Made by a program: the position numbers and the translations under genes. This document shows, piece by piece, positions 1 to 42,195 of a stretch of DNA of 48,121 nucleotides. The DNA is from a virus, in IMG/VR virus record IMGVR_UViG_3300033052_000113, positions 1 through 48,121 of that record; one strand, given 5' to 3'. Under the pieces are notes generated by a model. It ran no database searches. It was not told the DNA's origin and saw only the letters and a program-made list of their open reading frames with translations. The stretch's first letter is position 1. Every line of letters starts with the position of its first letter.

Positions 1-738
1 ATGGCTGACGGATCATCCCACAGTGAAATCGACGGCCTTAGTGACGCGGGCTTTATGGCCTACGTCGGCGCGGCAAATGTACGCGGATCTCTGAAGGCAG
101 AACTGCCGTGTAACCTCAGCGACACTCGCTTTCTAGGGAACTGCGAGACCGGCGCTTTCACCTATTGCAACGGCGGCGAGATCGCTGATGCGGTCATCGG
201 ACGCTACTGCTCGATCGGCCAGGACGTGCTGATCAACCCGGGAAATCACCCGACCAACCTGATTTCGACCCACCCGTTCGCCTACAAGGCGGACGGTGCC
301 TGTTGCGGACTATCTGGGCGACCAGAATATGCCGACATCGCCGCCGACTTCACCGGCGAGACGGACGCCCGGCCCAACCGTGTCGTGATCGGCAATGACG
401 TCTGGATCGGCGCGCGCGTCACCATACTTGGCGGGGTGACCATCGGAGATGGCGCGGTGATTGGCGCTGGCGCGGTCGTCACCGGCGATGTTGAGCCCTA
501 CGCCATCGTGGGCGGCGTTCCCGCGCGCATGATCCGCCGACGACTGCCTGAGACCTATGAACGCCTCCTGGCCAGCAAGTGGTGGGGACTTGATCTGTCC
601 TACCTGCCGGGCGCTCGCGATTATTCGGACGTCGGCGCGTTCCTTGATCGTCTCGCGCTCTCTCAGCTGCCCGCGCTTGAGCCGGCAAGCGCCCGGATTT
701 CCCAAGGGTGCCCGATCGCGCTTAGAACTCCGCGCTGA
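1..738 (+). CDS. Hexapeptide-repeat O-acyltransferase (CatB/WbbJ-like)
   Basis: Likely transfers an acetyl group to a sugar or small molecule. The C-terminal half (about residues 125-180) has left-handed beta-helix hexapeptide turns such as [21 protein letters not shown] and the closing [12 protein letters not shown] typical of the xenobiotic/sugar acetyltransferase family. STHPF near residue 90 matches the segment in which that family carries a catalytic His. The ATG is the first base of the window, so a longer N-terminus cannot be excluded. Its 3' end overlaps the convergent tailspike gene by 17 bp, which suggests it belongs to the phage. Beside a tailspike it could O-acetylate surface polysaccharide and change phage adsorption; that role is inference, and a host gene is possible. 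Confidence 0.8.
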
Positions 739-2940: not shown

Positions 2941-3453
2941 TTATCGGAAGTCCGCTGACTGCCACATGCAACCGCACTGACCCAGGCGATCACATGTCCG
3001 GAAGGGCAGATCAGGAAAGGATTGAACATCAAAGCGGCGGCCGTCGCATGCGGCTGCATCAGCGCAAGGACCGGCCGCCATCGTGCTCGCTAGGAATTCG
3101 ACGCGCTCTGGGATACCGAGCTTCGCGGCCCGCGAGAAGTACCTGAACTGGACCGCCGCCTTCATAACCGTTGCAGCGATTATGTGCGCCGATTCCAGGG
3201 GGTCGAGCAGGGCAGCTGGCAGTAAGAGGCCTACGAACTCGCGAGTAGCTCTGACATTTGCGCGCAGACCCAGCGCTTTCAGCTCGTCTCGATCCAGCGG
3301 CGTTCCCTCTTTGCGCAACTGGTCTCTAAAGACGAGGCCCTCTCGTTCGCACTGTCGATAGAGCGCGTAGATGCGAACATGGGATCTGTCGTTGACGAGT
3401 CCTGTATTCGTCAAGGCGCGATCTATTGCAGCGCGTTCAGTCTTGGCTTCCAT
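2941..3453 (-). CDS. Hypothetical protein, Cys-rich C-terminus
   Basis: 170 aa, family not recognised. The N-terminal two thirds look helical and charged; the last 45 residues hold five cysteines (CADAAAC, RTCDRLGQCGC) that could form a metal site. The start overlaps the end of the upstream RHH gene by 17 bp, so the two are probably co-translated. A small DNA-binding protein followed by a larger gene recalls antitoxin-toxin or regulator-effector pairs, but no toxin fold is visible. Confidence 0.55.
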   Translation of the reverse strand: MEAKTERAAIDRALTNTGLVNDRSHVRIYALYRQCEREGLVFRDQLRKEGTPLDRDELKALGLRANVRATREFVGLLLPAALLDPLESAHIIAATVMKAAVQFRYFSRAAKLGIPERVEFLASTMAAGPCADAAACDGRRFDVQSFPDLPFRTCDRLGQCGCMWQSADFR

Positions 3454-3649
3454 TCTCCGAAACTAACCCGAGATCAGCCAGCCGTCGCAAGGCCTCTGGG
3501 CGCGACGGCTTCGGCTCAGGTTGTGCGGCGATCCAGGCGTCGAGGCGAGCAAGCTCTTCATCCGTCATACGGACCATCAGCCCCGCCTTTCGACCACCAG
3601 TCGAAGGGCGTCCTCGCGATTTTGGGGTATCCGGTATTGACGGGTCCAT
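3437..3649 (-). CDS. Ribbon-helix-helix type DNA-binding protein
   Basis: 70 aa. After a basic linker (KSRGRPSTGGRK) comes a beta strand (LMVRMTDEELARLDAWI) and a second helix (RPEALRRLADLGL), the pattern of MetJ/Arc-type RHH repressors and antitoxins. The ATG at 3649 was chosen because the longer frame begins in a sequence that does not look like coding. It is the first gene of a two-gene minus-strand unit, divergent from the RAMP-like gene island starting at 3735, so it may regulate either direction. Confidence 0.65.
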   Translation of the reverse strand: MDPSIPDTPKSRGRPSTGGRKAGLMVRMTDEELARLDAWIAAQPEPKPSRPEALRRLADLGLVSENGSQD

Positions 3650-3734
3650 GAATTCAGGATACCCATAATTCAGCTCGGCGCAAGGTTGCCGCCTCGCGCC
3701 GAGCCTAACCATGAAACTTCGGAAGGTGTGTCCG

Positions 3735-3920
3735 ATGCCCCAGGCTGCTCAGCCTAATAGCACGTTCGTGCGCGATCTCCAGGCCATGGCCGACACGGCC
3801 GCGCTCCTCGCCCGCCTGTTCCCACGCCGGAATGGCGGCGCTGCGGGTGAACCGTGCGCCGATCCCGTGACGCCGCGCCGCCCGGCGCCGGCCGCCGCAC
3901 ACGTGCTGGAGGCTGCGTAA
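3735..3920 (+). CDS. Small hypothetical protein
   Basis: 61 aa, not recognised. The ATG at 3735 has a GGAAGG Shine-Dalgarno 8 nt upstream and is preferred over 3711. The N-terminal half is helical (FVRDLQAMADTAALLARLF) and the C-terminal half is Pro/Ala-rich and probably disordered. The stop overlaps the next ATG (TAATG), making it the first gene of a coupled four-gene + unit. Confidence 0.55.
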   Translation: MPQAAQPNSTFVRDLQAMADTAALLARLFPRRNGGAAGEPCADPVTPRRPAPAAAHVLEAA

Positions 3921-4306
3921 TGGTCGCCCCCACTCGTCGCGCCCTGTTTGGAGGGGCTGTCGCGGTTGCCGCGATGGCAGCGCCGGCGATTACCGCTGCG
4001 CTTCCTCGGTTCCCCTCTGAGCTGGAGCGCAGGATCGACAAAGCGCTAGTAGATATGCGGGCGATCAACTGCATGTCCGGCCTATCCGACGACGACCTGT
4101 ACGCGCTGATGAAGCCGGGGAAGGACGCTGTCGACGAGATATTGGCCCTGGACGGCGACGATGCTGATACCCAGCGCCTCCGCCTGAAGGCCATGCGCTG
4201 GTGCCACAGCGACGAGCCGATCGAAGACGGCGACTTCGGTGAATGCACGAACCAGCGGCTGGTCGAGAAAATCCTCCGGTCGGCGCTTAAGGCGGGAGCC
4301 ATCTAA
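3920..4306 (+). CDS. Hypothetical exported protein with Arg-Arg signal
   Basis: 128 aa. The N-terminus TRRALFGGAVAVAAMAAPAI is a signal peptide or anchor with a twin arginine before the hydrophobic stretch, compatible with Tat or Sec export. The mature part is acidic and helical with three cysteines (NCMSG, RWCHS, ECTNQ). The start overlaps the previous stop (TAATG), and its stop overlaps the ATG of the RAMP-like gene by one base, so all are probably translated together. Function unknown. Confidence 0.6.
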   Translation: MVAPTRRALFGGAVAVAAMAAPAITAALPRFPSELERRIDKALVDMRAINCMSGLSDDDLYALMKPGKDAVDEILALDGDDADTQRLRLKAMRWCHSDEPIEDGDFGECTNQRLVEKILRSALKAGAI

Positions 4307-4941
4307 TGGCCGCCGCCAAGTCCTCGACCGCGATCGAGCTCCCCGCCCTCGCGATCCAAACGCTACAGGTGCCGATCGTCGGCGACAGCCCTTTGATCAC
4401 CCACGCCTGGAGCGAGAAGGCCCTGCGCGCCATGGCCGACAAGCAGCAGAAGAAGGCCACCGCCGGGCGCGAGGCCAAGGACCCCTGGGCCGACTTCTGC
4501 GGATCCATGTACTGGCTGTCGGAGCGACCCGAGAAGCCGACCGAGGCCGACGTCGAGGCGGCGCGCTTCGGCTTCCCCGCGATCGCGTTCAAGGCCGCGG
4601 CCGTGACAGCCTGCACCTCGATCGGATCCATCACTAAGGTGGCCGCCCGCCAAGCCTTCCACGTCGAGGGTGAGTTCGTCGAGATCAACGGCCCTCCTCC
4701 GTCGATGCGCGAGGACGTGGCTCGCGTGGGCATGGGCACGGCGGACCTACGCTATCGCGGCGAGTTCTCTCCCTGGTCGGCGGTCCTGACCGTCAAGTTC
4801 AACGCCAACCTGATGTCGGCGGCCCAGGTCGTGAACCTGTTCCAAACTGCAGGCTTCGCGGTCGGCGTTGGCGAATGGCGGCCCGAGCGCGACGGCCCCT
4901 ATGGCCGCTTCCACGTCGCCGCTGATGGGGAGCACGTCTAA
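4306..4941 (+). CDS. Conserved phage protein, RAMP/Cas7-like architecture
   Basis: 211 aa. It is of a conserved phage type usually left unnamed. Features that recall the RAMP (Cas7/Csm3) fold are an N-terminal strand with VPIVGDSPLITH (22-33), a GFPAIAFKAAAVTAC segment (89-103) like the RAMP P-x-S-S-x-K-G-x-x-R region, a strand LTVKFNANL (161-169), and a terminal Gly-rich segment GFAVGVGEWRP...GPYGRFHV (183-204) like the RAMP glycine loop. This similarity is by eye and needs structure comparison. Stop and start overlap both neighbours, and the gene pair ends 16 nt before a 5-nt-period repeat array. It may bind nucleic acid. No Cas nuclease is nearby. Confidence 0.7.
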   Translation: MAAAKSSTAIELPALAIQTLQVPIVGDSPLITHAWSEKALRAMADKQQKKATAGREAKDPWADFCGSMYWLSERPEKPTEADVEAARFGFPAIAFKAAAVTACTSIGSITKVAARQAFHVEGEFVEINGPPPSMREDVARVGMGTADLRYRGEFSPWSAVLTVKFNANLMSAAQVVNLFQTAGFAVGVGEWRPERDGPYGRFHVAADGEHV

Positions 4942-5414
4942 TGACGGTCCGTTATGGATGGCGCCCTGGCGCCCGCATCAGCCTGGACGCCCAGGCGGCA
5001 GGCAAGGAGATGGAGCGAGTCCGCAAGGCCAACGGTGGCTCTCTGTCTCCCGACGTGGTGCTCGACAGCGCGCGGAGCCACAACTCCGCCCTGCACGCGC
5101 ACTTCGAGTGGGACGACGCGGTCGCGGCTGAGCAACACCGGCTCTCGCAGGCGGGTGAGCTGATCCGCGCCATCACCGTGGACATCAGCCGATCCAACGT
5201 CGAACCGCCCAAGACTATCCGCGCCTTCATCAGCGTTGAGCGGGAAGGAGAGCGGTCCTACACTTCAACGGTGCACGCCATGACCGACGCGGATCTCCGC
5301 GCTCAGGTCCTGGCGACGGCATGGCGCGAACTGCTCGCTCTTCGCGAGAAGTACGCAGGGCTCGAACAATTGGCGCGCATCTTTGCCGCCATTGACGAGG
5401 CCCGACCCGCCTAA
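4941..5414 (+). CDS. Conserved partner of the RAMP-like protein
   Basis: 157 aa, conserved phage protein of unknown function. Visible landmarks are an N-terminal basic stretch (YGWRPGARI), the central LHAHFEWDDAVAAEQHRL (91-108), a beta region around FISVEREGERSY, and a C-terminal helical segment AWRELLALREKYAGLEQLA. It overlaps the upstream RAMP-like gene by one base (TAATG), so the two are made together and probably form a complex. The TAA is followed at once by the pentamer array. No catalytic motif is apparent; the helical C-terminus could be an oligomerisation or bridging module. Confidence 0.65.
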   Translation: MTVRYGWRPGARISLDAQAAGKEMERVRKANGGSLSPDVVLDSARSHNSALHAHFEWDDAVAAEQHRLSQAGELIRAITVDISRSNVEPPKTIRAFISVEREGERSYTSTVHAMTDADLRAQVLATAWRELLALREKYAGLEQLARIFAAIDEARPA

Positions 5415-5430
5415 GGGTCGAAACGAGGCA

Positions 5431-5490
5431 GGCTAGGCTGGGCGTGTCCAGGTGCGGCTTGGCAAGGCGCGTTAAGGCATGGTGAGGCGA
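5431..5490 (+). repeat. Degenerate pentanucleotide (GGYNN) array, 12 units
   Basis: Twelve consecutive in-register 5-nt units, for example GGCTA, GGCTG, GGCGT, GGCAA. Position 1 is G in 12/12, position 2 is G in 10/12, position 3 is C in 9/12 and T in 3/12; positions 4-5 vary freely. An extra GGCA precedes it. The period is not a multiple of three, so it is not coding repetition. It lies directly after the RAMP-like gene pair and ends just before a hairpin, so it would be at the 3' end of their transcript. Confidence 0.75.
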
Positions 5491-5491
5491 C

Positions 5492-5519
5492 TGAGGGGTC
5501 AGCGGTAGCTGGCCCCTCA
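5492..5519. terminator. Hairpin between convergent units
   Basis: A 12-bp stem (TGAGGGGTCAGC against GCTGGCCCCTCA, one G-T wobble) with a GGTA loop sits between the + island and the stop of the tail tip gene at 5521. There is no clear T-tract, so it may terminate weakly in both directions or cap the 3' end of the array RNA. Confidence 0.6.
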
Positions 5520-5520
5520 C

Positions 5521-7617
5521 CTATGTCACGGTCGCGGTCACTGGACCCACGGGACCAGAACCATCGCCGTTTTGATTGAAGGCGACGACCCAATATCGGT
5601 ACGTACCTGCTGAGACGCTGTCGGTAATAGACATGACCTCGCCCACGCCACCGACGATCGGCGCCCCCACCGGTGAAGCTGACCCGAACGATGTTGAAGT
5701 GCCTCGGTAGAGGATGAGGTGGTCGAGGTTCAGGCTGGTGGGATTGCGCCAGCTGATCATGGCCGAGCCTGAACCGCCGGTTGCGGCGAAGTCGGTCGGT
5801 TGGCCTGGAGCGATGTCATCGGTCGAAGTCGAGATATCGACCGTGACCGACCATGGCGAAAGCGTCCCGCCACCGGTCTGATATGCGATCTGGAACTCCA
5901 GCGTCGCGTCGGCGGGTAGGAACTCCCCCGTCTCCATCGTCACGCCGGCGTCGGGGTCGATGTCGCCGCCCTGGCGCTCGGTCCAGCTGGTCGCGCCATC
6001 CACACGCCAGCGATAGAACCAGGTCAGGTCGCTGCGGTCGGGGCCGGTACCGTCGATCCGCATGCGCACGCCGTCACCGCCAGTGCCGGTCGATGCATAG
6101 AACGGCGTGAGATCGACGATGACCGGCGCGTCGAGCGCCTCCGGCGTCGGCCTTGCCGCCGTTACGGGCCCATCGCCCTCTTCCGTCACCGGGTTCCAGT
6201 CATAGCGCGCCGCAGACGCCATCTTGTAGGTCCAGGTGATGGATGCGGAGCCCAGGTCGATCGACGCCTCCAGGATTTCGACCACAGCATTGTTGAGGTC
6301 ATCCTGGTCGCTGATGCGAATGCCCACGTAGCGCTCGCCCAGCGCCCGCCGTCCTGACAATGGTGTACGGAAGGTGCCGTCCGGAGCGAAGTTGCGATCC
6401 ATCGCCGCCTTGGCCAGTCGACGCACCTGGCTATTGCCCTGGACGCCCTTGGGCGTGAACTCGCTCGATCGCTCCTCGCCCCGGGCCAGGATGTCCTCTT
6501 CGTTTCGCCAACTGTCGGTTTCCACGGTCGAATAGTTGTTGGCCGGGTCGCAAAAGCTGACCACGAGAGCGTTGATGGCCGAGTCCGGCGTGGGACCAGG
6601 ATTGAAGCTGTAATCGATGATCTCTTCGTCGCCGAAGAAGATCGTCGGCGCCTGGTAACGCCCGGCGCGGATGATGTAGGCGCCGTCGCGGCGCACAGCA
6701 AAGTGGCCATCCATGGCGTTCAGAAGGGTCTGCAGAAGGGTCTTGCGCAGGCTCGTAGCCTCGAACCAAAACCCCACCTCATAGCGCTTCACCGATCCGC
6801 CGGCCTTGAGGGCCACCAATTCGTCGCAGACGTTGGCCTCCGCGGTCAGGATGGCTAGAGCCGGCGCGAAACGCCGGTCCCAATCAGCGCCGTAGCGCCG
6901 CCACAGAATGTTGACGGTCCAGACCACGACATTGCCCGTCTGCCCCCAGGTCGAGGGATCGTTTCGGTTCTGGTCAGGGTCGCGCCAGTCGTAAGCAAGG
7001 TAGCTCGCCTCGCGGGTCAGCTCGGTCGCCGCGCCCGCGGGAAACTGCTTCTGTGCATCGGCCAGCTTCCCGTTCTCGCACCGCAGATAGGTGGATGGAA
7101 CGCCGTCTCCGCGGCTGGTCGAGGGCCAGAGCGAAGGAAACGCCGAGGTGAGGTTGCTGTAGCTAGTCTCGGTGATGGATCCGAGCCGGCTGTAGACGCG
7201 AGCCCGCCCGGTCTCGTAACGTCCGTTGGACAACTGCTGCACGCTGTCGCCGACGATTGTGACCTCGTCATCGTTCAGCCAGGCGCGCTCATAGGCCCCT
7301 ACCGGTCCCTCGGGGTAGGCATAGACCTGATGGTAGCGGTTGCTCTCGGCCTCCCGGAAGGCGACCGCGCCCGAAACCCTCGTCCTGCCTACGCCATAGC
7401 GTCGCGCCGGCCGGGCCTGCTTGAGGTTGGTCTGCGAAGCCGCCGGGTCCGGGATATTCGGCGCCAGGGCCGCGTTGATGGCCAACGGCACGCCGACGGC
7501 CACGGCGGTAAAGGCTGCGAACCCGGCGATCTGGCTCGCAGCGATGCCCGCAGGCGCAAGAGCATTGGCGGCGGCGCCGGCGGCAAGTTGTGCGACATGG
7601 ATCAGGGTTTCGGCCAT
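5521..7617 (-). CDS. Tail tip / host specificity protein (J-like)
   Basis: 698 aa; last gene of the tail module. The N-terminus has a hydrophobic Ala/Gly segment (about 10-55), then NLKQARPARRYGVGRTRVSG (about 65-84) typical of phage tail tip proteins, a central tail-hub region, and two C-terminal fibronectin-III-like repeats ending APGQPTDFAATGGSGSAMISW and RYWVVAFNQNGDGSGP. It probably forms the tip complex that contacts the receptor. The start at 7617 overlaps the stop of the NlpC/P60-like gene (ATGA). The order TMP, two hub proteins, NlpC/P60, J matches the gene-transfer-agent type of siphophage tail tip. Confidence 0.85.
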   Translation of the reverse strand: MAETLIHVAQLAAGAAANALAPAGIAASQIAGFAAFTAVAVGVPLAINAALAPNIPDPAASQTNLKQARPARRYGVGRTRVSGAVAFREAESNRYHQVYAYPEGPVGAYERAWLNDDEVTIVGDSVQQLSNGRYETGRARVYSRLGSITETSYSNLTSAFPSLWPSTSRGDGVPSTYLRCENGKLADAQKQFPAGAATELTREASYLAYDWRDPDQNRNDPSTWGQTGNVVVWTVNILWRRYGADWDRRFAPALAILTAEANVCDELVALKAGGSVKRYEVGFWFEATSLRKTLLQTLLNAMDGHFAVRRDGAYIIRAGRYQAPTIFFGDEEIIDYSFNPGPTPDSAINALVVSFCDPANNYSTVETDSWRNEEDILARGEERSSEFTPKGVQGNSQVRRLAKAAMDRNFAPDGTFRTPLSGRRALGERYVGIRISDQDDLNNAVVEILEASIDLGSASITWTYKMASAARYDWNPVTEEGDGPVTAARPTPEALDAPVIVDLTPFYASTGTGGDGVRMRIDGTGPDRSDLTWFYRWRVDGATSWTERQGGDIDPDAGVTMETGEFLPADATLEFQIAYQTGGGTLSPWSVTVDISTSTDDIAPGQPTDFAATGGSGSAMISWRNPTSLNLDHLILYRGTSTSFGSASPVGAPIVGGVGEVMSITDSVSAGTYRYWVVAFNQNGDGSGPVGPVTATVT

Positions 7618-8036
7618 CAGACCCTCCACGCCCTCACTACCGGCCAGGCCCCAACGGCAATGCCGCCGGACGTCAGCACGGCCCATCCGATGGAGGTTCG
7701 GATTCCGGCCACTTGCTGAGCCCCTTCACGGGTGGGTGCTTCAAGCACGGCGATGTCGCCAGGCACGGGATCGACGGTGCAATACAGGCCGACCTTGGCC
7801 GCGCCGCGGCCGACGAGCGCGGCCAGTCCGCCACCAGCCTGGACCAGCTTCTTGGCCTCCTCGGCCGTTCGGTAGCAGCCGCGCCAGAGCGCGGCCCCAT
7901 CGACGCCCCTTTCTTGCTCCACCCAGCGCGCGACGAAGCCGGCGGTGCAGTCCCACCCCTGGGCATAGTCGATACGCCGGCGCGCGGCGGCGGCGACGTA
8001 GGCGCTCAGTCGCTCGACACGGGTCAGGCCGGCCAT
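7617..8036 (-). CDS. NlpC/P60-like tail peptidase (DUF6950 type)
   Basis: 139 aa. YAQGWDCTAGFVARWVEQ (24-41) contains the Asp-Cys pair that starts the catalytic helix in NlpC/P60-like tail proteins, with Cys30 as candidate nucleophile. GLYCTVDPVPGDIAVLEA and GGIAVG follow the family pattern, but the usual catalytic His is not obvious by eye. It probably opens peptidoglycan locally during DNA entry or acts in tail assembly. The ATG was chosen over a much longer frame because only this part has the domain. Its stop overlaps the next start by 4 bp. Confidence 0.75.
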   Translation of the reverse strand: MAGLTRVERLSAYVAAAARRRIDYAQGWDCTAGFVARWVEQERGVDGAALWRGCYRTAEEAKKLVQAGGGLAALVGRGAAKVGLYCTVDPVPGDIAVLEAPTREGAQQVAGIRTSIGWAVLTSGGIAVGAWPVVRAWRV

Positions 8037-14103: not shown

Positions 14104-14178
14104 TGGCCCGTGGTGCAAAGGACAGCACGACGGTTTCCTAAACTGGGGATGCAGGTTCGATTCCTGCCGGGTCAGCCA
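14104..14178 (+). tRNA. tRNA-Arg (anticodon CCT)
   Basis: 75 nt and folds as a complete cloverleaf. The acceptor stem is TGGCCCG/CGGGTCA (one G-T wobble), the D stem GTGC/GCAC, the anticodon loop TTCCTAA, a 4-nt variable loop, and a perfect T stem GCAGG/CCTGC around TTCGATT. CCA is encoded. The anticodon stem has one A-G mismatch at its base. CCT reads AGG, a rare Arg codon in high-GC hosts. It is on the strand opposite the structural genes, and its CCA abuts the stop codon of the convergent gp10-like gene. Confidence 0.9.
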
Positions 14179-28407: not shown

Positions 28408-29835
28408 CTACAGGTTGTCGAGGGTATAGCTCGACCCCAGGGCCACGATCTCGAATGCCCGCGAAGTGCTGTCTGCGTCGTCATCGTGCTTGGCGGTCGG
28501 GAAGCCTTCCAGGGCGGTGAACCACTTCTCGTTCCAGGGACCGCGCAGCACGTCCACGTTGCCGTGCTCGGCCTGCGACGAGAAGAGCGAGAAGCGGGTC
28601 AACTTGTCGCCGGTCTCGGTGGATGACTTCACGGTGTAGCCGCTGAGCATCTTCACCAGACCGGCGACCTGGCTTTTGCCGGCCTGGCCGGGGTCCTGCG
28701 GCAGCGAGATCGTGCACATGAGGCCGTCTTGGGAGGCGGTGTTCCTGATCAGCTGCTCGACCTTCGCCGGGCTCAGGGCGTCGCTGTGGTTGTCGACCAC
28801 GATGTAGCGGCCATCCGGCGTGCGTCCGATCTTGGTGCTGCTGGTCTCGTCGGGGTCCGGGCTCTCCGCCGTGCGCGGGGTGGCGGCGAGGTCGTAGCCG
28901 CGGCCAAAGACCGTGCCGGCCGGGATGGCGTCCACCACCCTGCACCACGACCGTTGGAAGTAGAGGCCGGCGGCGGGCCGGATCTTCCAGTTGCCACCCA
29001 GCAGGCGCTCGCGCTCGACCAACGGTAGGGCCAGCAGCGACGCCATGTAGGCCGGGTCCGCCGCCATCAGCGCCTTGTTGTCGGTCAGCTTGGCCGGGAT
29101 GAAAGTCAGGGACTTGGCGGGGATCGGGACAGTGTCGCCGTCCTCGTTGACCATCGTGTAGATGGCCAGGTCTTCCGGGCTGTCGGCCCACTTCAGGTCT
29201 TCGCCGACGCGGACGAACCAGCGCAGAACCCCCGACCGCTCCGGGATAGGCAGGCCGGTTTCCTGGTCTATCCACCACTCTATCAGCTTGGCGACCCAGC
29301 TGTCCGCGTCCGGGTTGCAGGTCGCCCGGATGTAGGGCCGCACGCCGCACATTGAGCGGTTGCGGCTGACCATGTACCAGAACTGGACCGCGCTGAAGTG
29401 CGTCAGCTCGTCGAACTTGATCAGGGGGATTTGCGACCCCTGCCAGTTGAACCGGGTCTTGTCGTGTTCGAGGTGGGCGAAGCTGGCCGTCGCGCCGGAC
29501 GGGAACTTCCACGACAGCACATGCTCCTTCGGCTCGGCGCCGACGAGCGGATAGAGATTGGCGCTCTCGTCCCAAAGGCCGCCCTCGTTTCGGATCTGCA
29601 CCGTGGAGCGACGGAAGGTGACCGAACCGAAGCCCGGGTTGTGGATGTGGCGCAGGTCTTCAAGCAGCAGCGCCCAAGTCTTCCCGCCGCCGGCGCCGCC
29701 GCCATAGATCGCGATGTCCGCCGAGGTAGCGAGGAAGGCGGTCTGTGGGCCTGGCTGCGGCTTGATCGTGGTTTCGTCGATCGCCGGGCCGCCGTTGTGG
29801 CCGATGGTGGGCCGCTCGGCGACCATGGCGCTCAT
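28408..29835 (-). CDS. terL: Terminase large subunit
   Basis: 475 aa. The ATPase has Walker A GGGAGGGKT (45-53) and Walker B IKFDELTHF (139-147, Asp142-Glu143). The nuclease domain has the acidic set GRGYDLA (Asp315), LPQDPGQAG (Asp381) and KHDDDADS (about 451-455). It cuts and pumps DNA into the prohead. No intein or truncation is visible. It lies directly downstream of the DUF2280-type small subunit, and its stop meets the shared hairpin. Confidence 0.92.
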   Translation of the reverse strand: MSAMVAERPTIGHNGGPAIDETTIKPQPGPQTAFLATSADIAIYGGGAGGGKTWALLLEDLRHIHNPGFGSVTFRRSTVQIRNEGGLWDESANLYPLVGAEPKEHVLSWKFPSGATASFAHLEHDKTRFNWQGSQIPLIKFDELTHFSAVQFWYMVSRNRSMCGVRPYIRATCNPDADSWVAKLIEWWIDQETGLPIPERSGVLRWFVRVGEDLKWADSPEDLAIYTMVNEDGDTVPIPAKSLTFIPAKLTDNKALMAADPAYMASLLALPLVERERLLGGNWKIRPAAGLYFQRSWCRVVDAIPAGTVFGRGYDLAATPRTAESPDPDETSSTKIGRTPDGRYIVVDNHSDALSPAKVEQLIRNTASQDGLMCTISLPQDPGQAGKSQVAGLVKMLSGYTVKSSTETGDKLTRFSLFSSQAEHGNVDVLRGPWNEKWFTALEGFPTAKHDDDADSTSRAFEIVALGSSYTLDNL

Positions 29836-32275: not shown

Positions 32276-32613
32276 CAGGACGCCCTCCCCTCTTCCTCGA
32301 CCGGGACGATCTTCACCTTCCCCGTCGAGAGCAGGTCCCTCATGGCGCGTAGGGTCTCGGAGTGCTTGGTGCCCAGCCAGTCGGCTAGGTCTTCGACCGT
32401 GGCGCCGGCGGGGAAGTGGCGAAGGTCGCCCAGGATCTCGGCGCGGAGGTGCTCGGTCTTGGCAGAAGGCGGGCGCTTGTCCGGCCGGCCGCGTGGGCGC
32501 AGCGTCACCCCCGCTTCCCTCAGGCGATTGCGTACCGTCGTGCGGCTAAGGCCCGTCGCCGCGGCAACCTGACGAAGGCTCTTGCCCTGGTAGAGGTCGG
32601 CGAGGTTGGTCAT
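32275..32613 (-). CDS. Helix-turn-helix regulator
   Basis: 112 aa. KSLRQVAAATGLSRTTVRNR (11-30) is a resolvase/HTH_7-type helix-turn-helix, with a second winged-helix-like region (TVEDLADWLGTKHSETLRAM, 72-91). The last and first bases overlap neighbours, so it is co-translated in the leftward operon. Candidate early regulator or replication accessory. Confidence 0.72.
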   Translation of the reverse strand: MTNLADLYQGKSLRQVAAATGLSRTTVRNRLREAGVTLRPRGRPDKRPPSAKTEHLRAEILGDLRHFPAGATVEDLADWLGTKHSETLRAMRDLLSTGKVKIVPVEEEGRAS

Positions 32614-33188
32614 GCGGCCCTCCCCTTGTCGCCATTCGCAGGCGGCCGCGTGAAGCCGGCCAGCATCTTGGCGACGAGCGCCTTTCGGGTCTCCACGTCC
32701 TGCGGCGGGATCACCTTGGGCGGCAACGTGGCGGCGGCGCGCTTGGCGCGGGACAGGGCTTTCAGTATTGGCTCGGCCCGCTTGGCGGCCAGGGCTTTCA
32801 GCGGACCAGGCTTCGGGAAGAACTCGGCATTGGCACCGCCGGCGTAGTCGCTCACGGCCTGGGCTAGAGCCTCCGCGGGAAAACCGGACAGCTGTTCGAC
32901 ATAGACCCGCCAGAACGCCGCCGACTTGGCCGCCTCCCCCACGCCGTAGACCAGAACGAGGGGCTGCAGGGCCTCGCGCACCTTCTGGGCGCCGCAGGGT
33001 TCGGCGACGGACGTCAGGGCCGGGATCGACGCTCGCGCCTCGGCATGCAGCGCCGGGACGGAGACGATCGCCTCCAGGGCGACCTCGGCAGGCAGGTCAC
33101 TCGCAAGCTGCCGCCATAGCCCTGTCGATATCCGACAGTCGGTCAGCGTAAGCGGCTTCTCGGGGCGGGCGGGAACCAGTTCGTTCAT
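32610..33188 (-). CDS. Hypothetical replication-region protein
   Basis: 192 aa. Helical, with WRQLASDLPAEVALEAIVS (25-43) and FFPKPGPLKALAAKRAEPIL (122-141). It resembles unnamed proteins that follow DUF1376 initiators in alphaproteobacterial phages. Its start overlaps the initiator end by 92 bp in another frame, which ties the two genes. Possible helicase loader or replication accessory; unproven. Confidence 0.62.
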   Translation of the reverse strand: MNELVPARPEKPLTLTDCRISTGLWRQLASDLPAEVALEAIVSVPALHAEARASIPALTSVAEPCGAQKVREALQPLVLVYGVGEAAKSAAFWRVYVEQLSGFPAEALAQAVSDYAGGANAEFFPKPGPLKALAAKRAEPILKALSRAKRAAATLPPKVIPPQDVETRKALVAKMLAGFTRPPANGDKGRAA

Positions 33189-41679: not shown

Positions 41680-41916
41680 ATGGCGCAAGCGATCTTCACC
41701 GCGCGCGAAGGCGCCGTGTTCTTCGAAGGCCGGCCGGTTCCTGAATCCCGAGCCGTCGCGCTGCGCCAGCGCCTCGTGACGATGGCGCTCGACCCTTCCG
41801 CCGCCATGCCGCGCGCCAACGCCTTCTGGCGTCTCGCCGCCGAGCTTCGCGCCGCCCTGGGCGAAGCACGCAAGCACTCGCGCACCACCGACAACCCGCC
41901 GCCGCGCGCGGCCTGA
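41680..41916 (+). CDS. Early protein, paralogue of the gene at 40019
   Basis: 78 aa. FTAREGAVFFEGRPVPESRA and LRQRLVTMALDPSAAMPRAN nearly match the gene at 40019, also at DNA level, so a recent duplication flanking the DpdA-like region is likely. The C-terminus is shorter and basic. Function unknown. Confidence 0.65.
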   Translation: MAQAIFTAREGAVFFEGRPVPESRAVALRQRLVTMALDPSAAMPRANAFWRLAAELRAALGEARKHSRTTDNPPPRAA

Positions 41917-41940
41917 CCCACCCACCAGAGGAGCCCTACC

Positions 41941-42195
41941 ATGGCCGTCGCCATCCCGCCGGACCTCTACGAGTCCGCCGCTTCCATTCTCGCCCAGGCC
42001 GGCCGCGTCGAGCGGACCTGCCAACGGTTCACGTCCGAGGCGCAGTTGCAGAACGCCCTTCGCGACCTCGCCACGATCAAGCACGAGGCCATGAAGGCCC
42101 GGCGCCACATCCGGGGCCTGATAGCCGAAGCGCGGGCCGAGGCCAAACGCGTCGCCGCGCTCGCGCCGGCCATGGCCGGAGGCGTGGCGGCGTGA
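41941..42195 (+). CDS. Small helical hypothetical protein
   Basis: 84 aa, helical with a basic C-terminal half (EAMKARRHIRGLIAEARAEAK). Its stop overlaps the GTG of the ACP-like gene. Not recognised. Confidence 0.6.
   Translation: MAVAIPPDLYESAASILAQAGRVERTCQRFTSEAQLQNALRDLATIKHEAMKARRHIRGLIAEARAEAKRVAALAPAMAGGVAA

Follow-up and report, generated by a model that had tools for sequence, protein, structure and literature searches.

A GGYNN pentamer array beside a RAMP-fold gene in a viral genome: a probable guide RNA gene of the VIPR type

VIPR (Viral Interference Programmable Repeat) is a very recently described form of RNA-guided DNA recognition, proposed to be older than CRISPR (bioRxiv 2026.04.26.720920, PMC13142463, a 2026 preprint). 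It consists of Vipr, a RAMP protein encoded by the phage, of an accessory gene named vap, and of vrRNAs with 9–16 GGY/NN repeats; on DNA these vrRNAs skip one base between the dinucleotides that they read, and they are directed against competing phages (PMC13142463). The vrRNAs of Escherichia phage SUSP1 have a conserved pseudoknotted tail (PMC13142463). A literature search returned no paper on VIPR besides this preprint. In the SUSP1 record, GGYNN arrays were found on both sides of two genes, as the preprint describes, and the larger of these genes encodes a homologue of a protein of the DNA analysed here, a virus record stretch of 48,121 nucleotides referred to as the window. The window contains a small phage locus with vipr and a conserved downstream gene, and the features discussed are the following.

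4306–4941, forward strand: vipr gene, 211 aa, RAMP/Cas7 fold, phrog_4652 (AlphaFold2 model, PDB matches and SUSP1 homology)
4941–5414, forward strand: putative vap (accessory) gene, 157 aa, phrog_15946 (homologue follows vipr in relatives)
5427–5430, forward strand: 4-nt GGCA unit opening the block (GGCA also lies between blocks in relatives)
5431–5490, forward strand: vrRNA guide tract of 12 GGYNN pentamers (period-5 statistics)
5492–5519, forward strand: 12-bp hairpin just 3′ of the tract, vrRNA 3′ end or terminator-like
5560–5595, reverse strand: the window's own counterpart of the proposed target site, at the 3′ end of tail-fibre gene 5521–7686, with 17/24 guide letters

The pentamers of the tract are GGCTA, GGCTG, GGCGT, GTCCA, GGTGC, GGCTT, GGCAA, GGCGC, GTTAA, GGCAT, GGTGA and GGCGA. 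On recount, the column counts given in the original prediction proved exact, with G at the first position in 12/12, G at the second in 10/12 (T in the other 2/12) and C or T at the third in 12/12 (nine and three, respectively). Positions four and five are mixed and give the series TA TG GT CA GC TT AA GC AA AT GA GA. The tract is situated, as had been stated, outside both neighbouring coding sequences, in the gap that separates the stop of the ORF at 4941–5414 (+) from the end of the tail gene at 5521–7686 (−), which runs towards it. When the 5-nt periodicity was submitted to a permutation test, no shuffle equalled the array: a full GGY is present in 10 of the 12 pentamers, a number reached by 0/100,000 mononucleotide shuffles (maximum 7), and the column-consensus score was matched by 0/20,000 dinucleotide-preserving shuffles. 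The lag-5 autocorrelation gave p = 0.0015, and no other 60-bp stretch in the 48-kb window ranked higher for period 5. The earlier claim that the pattern is not derived from codons and is selected at the nucleic-acid level was upheld. A second, weak GGY-like run was seen at 41899–42022 (−), scoring 16 versus 28 for the main array, and is probably GC-rich coding sequence.

Folding of 5410–5530 gave a z of −3.8. The hairpin at 5492–5519 is strong and its sequence is not conserved; it lacks a T-run and was not reported by a consensus terminator scan. A counterpart of the pseudoknotted SUSP1 tail was not found. Rfam gave no match at the array, its sole match in the window being a tRNA gene at 14104–14175 (+) (RF00005, 53 bits). 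No CRISPR direct repeats were found at 5300–5700, no cas-type matches among the proteins neighbouring the array, and no DNA similarity of 3400–5800 to named phages.

Relatives of the 4306–4941 protein numbered at least 80 in a scan of IMG/VR, and the counts below are based on the 80 listed. In line with the comparison with related phages that had been proposed, locus segmentation detected GGYNN arrays, lying on the strand of the gene, in 76 of these 80. In three of the four array-less loci (L027, L042 and L047) the contig stops about 490–565 nt past the gene. The arrays are mostly located 500–1000 nt downstream of the gene, a few lying directly downstream or upstream, and consist of one block, as in the window, to about 28, separated by a 4-nt unit that is GGCA in about four-fifths of cases. 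Over thousands of pentamers the first position is G in 95%, the second G in 80% or T in 16% and the third C or T in 93%, while the fourth and fifth are spread across all four bases. A strong hairpin immediately follows about half of the arrays. The fixed GGY, the free NN and the variable number of blocks suggest a guide array, independently of any paper.

TRAP binds (G/U)AG triplets in the Bacillus trp leader with a fixed ring stoichiometry of 11 triplets. A TRAP-like ring protein regulating the neighbouring operon, with about 11 triplets 5 nt apart wound round an oligomeric ring, would explain the triplet with two free bases, the 11–12 repeats and the UTR-like position of the window array. 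This explanation is very improbable, as blocks in the relatives mostly hold 8–13 pentamers but extend to 19 or more, and arrays reach about 950 nt, so that there is no fixed ring number; moreover, the triplet is GGY, the conserved neighbour is a RAMP, and the NN letters decode to targets as described below.

Two further observations were made on the arrays of relatives. Mycobacterium phage Brocalys (NC_031262), a laboratory phage of M. smegmatis, has a GGCA-punctuated GGYNN array (L138 2126–2362, record positions about 32516–32752) just upstream of its Vipr gp45 (41% identical) and near repressor and antirepressor genes, and would lend itself well to work on multi-block arrays. Loci L049, L057, L025, L032 and L078 share a conserved leader ahead of the first block, GTTACGGCGAGAGTTCC..ACAACCTCGCG, and in four of these five an L079 guide fits the leader at 19–20/20.

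The partner protein of the array, the product of the second ORF upstream (4306–4941), had been overlooked in the original prediction. Its family, phrog_4652, is annotated as of unknown function. The AlphaFold2 model (alignment A1, 33 relatives) had a pLDDT of 87 and a pTM of 0.83, and its top PDB matches were all CRISPR RAMPs, namely type VII Cas7 and Csm3 (Foldseek E 1.4e-5; VIA Z 10.1 over 157 residues). According to this model the protein folds as a CRISPR RAMP/Cas7-fold subunit. It is homologous to the SUSP1 protein at 28474–29061 (BLASTP 7e-10, 23% identity; hhalign 97%), which is presumed to be Vipr from its place between the arrays. In at least 56 of the 80 loci vipr is followed by a homologue of the next gene, the putative vap (phrog_15946); its model was confident but resembled winged-helix repressors only weakly (Z no higher than 5.8), and no relation to the smaller SUSP1 gene product was detectable. 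Pfam and NCBIfam gave no match above cut-off for either gene, and PADLOC gave none for vipr and two weak partial matches for vap. An ORF without family match (3854–4306, +, 150 aa) lies directly upstream of vipr, overlaps it and possibly belongs to the same operon. A further ORF, at 1–738 (+) on the record's edge, resembles hexapeptide-repeat acetyltransferases.

The stretch 5427–5490 would be the single guide RNA (vrRNA) of the window VIPR, its 12 GGY/NN repeats falling within the VIPR range of 9–16. In all likelihood the window locus is a VIPR system with the array as its guide-RNA gene, whose RNA would be transcribed with vipr, use the skip-1 code and repress a competing phage.

The code was tested on whole blocks of 8–13 pentamers with skips of 0–3 against about 1.4 Mb of relatives with the arrays masked and with unit-shuffled blocks as controls, a small database that yields small numbers. 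Only skip 1 gave perfect whole-block matches (3/305, versus 0 in the shuffled controls), and skips 0, 2 and 3 gave no perfect blocks and no excess over controls in the same 1.4 Mb. One L059 block fits the vap genes of L024, L026, L034 and L035 at 19/20, in frame and with the wobble bases skipped, another L059 block fits L035 at 18/18, and an L079 block fits the leader just upstream of the L049 and L057 arrays at 20/20. Each of these matches takes up one block from GGCA to GGCA. The blocks thus act like individual guides, an indication that in the GGCA-punctuated multi-block arrays every block is read on its own. These matches between sequences support the published 1-nt-skip rule for the clade of the window. 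Contiguous NN, YNN and reversed-NN readouts were also run against all loci and showed no excess over shuffles, and allowing G-A or T-C wobble at skip 1 brought no clear gain over exact matching.

The original prediction had proposed a protein footprint, an RNA helix or a recombination site, and had passed over the information in the two seemingly random letters, which make up a noncontiguous guide. The footprint comes nearest, since RAMP subunits hold each GGY in the VIPR model; the RNA helix found no support. A DNA-level repeat, an iteron-like binding site or recombination site for a phage protein, would agree with the intergenic position and the direct repeats, but is highly unlikely, and recombination in particular was not supported: the arrays keep to the vipr strand, a hairpin comes next in about half, NN is free where GGY is fixed, and the skip-1 code yields coherent targets elsewhere.

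To return to the VIPR reading, pentamers 1–9 of the window guide at skip 1 (18 fixed bases) matched a single stretch in IMG/VR at 18/18, positions 5809–5834 (−) of contig L082. A near-identical sister contig also has an 18/18 site; it was unlisted at first, and the IMG/VR scan with this code is thus not exhaustive. The L082 site codes, in codon register, for YWVQAFNAN and belongs to the 3′ end of a gene for a tail fibre. This gene is homologous (40% over 669 aa) to the window gene 5521–7686 (−), which itself ends 31 nt from the array. Pentamers 10–12 fit the L082 target poorly (2/6), so that the guide may by nature be directed at a related but so far unsequenced tail gene. An order-shuffled guide pattern had no match in IMG/VR. 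Among permuted guides, 8/300,000 matched anywhere in the 1.4 Mb of relatives, and on this scale about one chance 18-base match in all IMG/VR is expected and would be unremarkable. What gives the L082 match weight is its position, in codon register within a gene homologous to the array's neighbour, and a rival phage's tail-fibre gene is a plausible target of the window guide as judged from these alignments.

Two other searches gave candidates that were set aside: pentamers 4–12 had three matches in IMG/VR (19–20/24, in lower-GC phages), read as chance, and the 18-base code had four in GTDB genomes, all cyanobacterial, read as background. The guide of L002, the closest sibling, had no target in IMG/VR. 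Vipr was not found in four records with the tail homologue, in a search run without a positive control.

VIPR may also be right with the tail-fibre match being chance or a proxy, the natural target being another phage, a satellite or a host gene outside the collections. We consider this the less probable case, though one of real weight. The misfit of pentamers 10–12, the expected chance match and the cyanobacterial background agree with it; what speaks for the tail-fibre gene is the placement of the match described above, together with the very few IMG/VR contigs, among those scanned, that carry a close homologue of the tail protein end.

The window's own copy of the tail-fibre site reads YWVVAFNQN, differing by amino-acid replacements, and mismatches the guide in both letters at pentamers 4, 8 and 10 and in one at pentamer 12, which gives a fit of 17 versus 20 of 24 for the rival. 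The L059 guide fits its own vap at 15/20 versus 19/20 in other phages, a guide of L070 fits its own copy at 12/16 versus 16/16 in the rival, and the own leader of L079 diverges inside the targeted stretch. In each case inspected the own copies fit the guides worse than the rival copies, which on sequence grounds is suggestive of self-avoidance; the comparison uses best matches, a choice that itself tilts toward rivals over self. Because a skip-1 guide does not read wobble bases, a synonymous change can in practice give escape only at codons for Leu, Arg and Ser. The own vap of L059 encodes GLIRSVVAIY, the very peptide targeted in the others, using TTA, AGG and AGC codons, synonymous changes of the sort that affect guide-read letters (site 4894–4923, compared with L024, L026, L034, L035 and L036). 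The chance of this codon set from its own codon usage is 0.24 × 0.21 × 0.34, or about 0.02, and it is taken as a lead and not as a result. Tentatively, the guides of the clade might be allele-specific weapons against rivals' versions of a phage's own genes, with self-immunity through altered guide-read letters, an idea we entertain without favouring it. L005 and L006 share an 8-pentamer block differing by one letter, and these guides fit the other's allele (NKYLGNKG or NKYRGNKG) at 14/16 versus 13/16 for their own, a difference that is not significant alone.

The mechanism that we propose would start with one transcript through vipr (4306–4941), vap (4941–5414) and the 3′ pentamer tract, with its end close to the hairpin. 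On this RNA the small RAMP Vipr would assemble into a ribonucleoprotein with one subunit per GGYNN; the protein would hold the GGY, leaving the NN pairs to read double-stranded DNA. In coding targets, the base skipped between successive dinucleotides would be the wobble position of each codon. Once bound, the complex would repress a gene of the competing phage, for the window guide presumably the 3′ end of a related phage's tail-fibre gene, from which the own copy differs at guide-read positions.

This kind of system has already been described, and what is new here is its independent rederivation from raw sequence. The noncontiguous code of VIPR is supported in an independent clade, one guide gains a plausible rival-phage target in a tail-fibre gene, and there are first hints of how VIPR phages avoid hitting themselves. 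Among known systems, TRAP-regulated leaders such as that of the Bacillus trp operon share the triplets with two free bases between them, but the window has GGY as its triplet, a variable repeat number and another protein fold. The backbones of class 1 CRISPR effectors (Csm3/Cas7, type III and VII) have the RAMP fold in common with Vipr, as well as the RNA-guided logic and periodic unread bases; their period is 6 nt versus 5 nt with three fixed letters in the window array, and the window protein and locus are far simpler. VIPR of SUSP1 is similar in its phage-encoded RAMP, single accessory gene and GGY/NN vrRNA, the window hairpin perhaps corresponding to its 3′ structure, and the clade of the window fits the 1-nt skip and has a putative rival-phage target. 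The two differ in that Vipr identity is only about 23%, the accessory genes are unrelated, and the window has a single block with a plain hairpin. The relatives of the window have GGCA-punctuated multi-block arrays, perhaps the 'staggered arrays' of the preprint.
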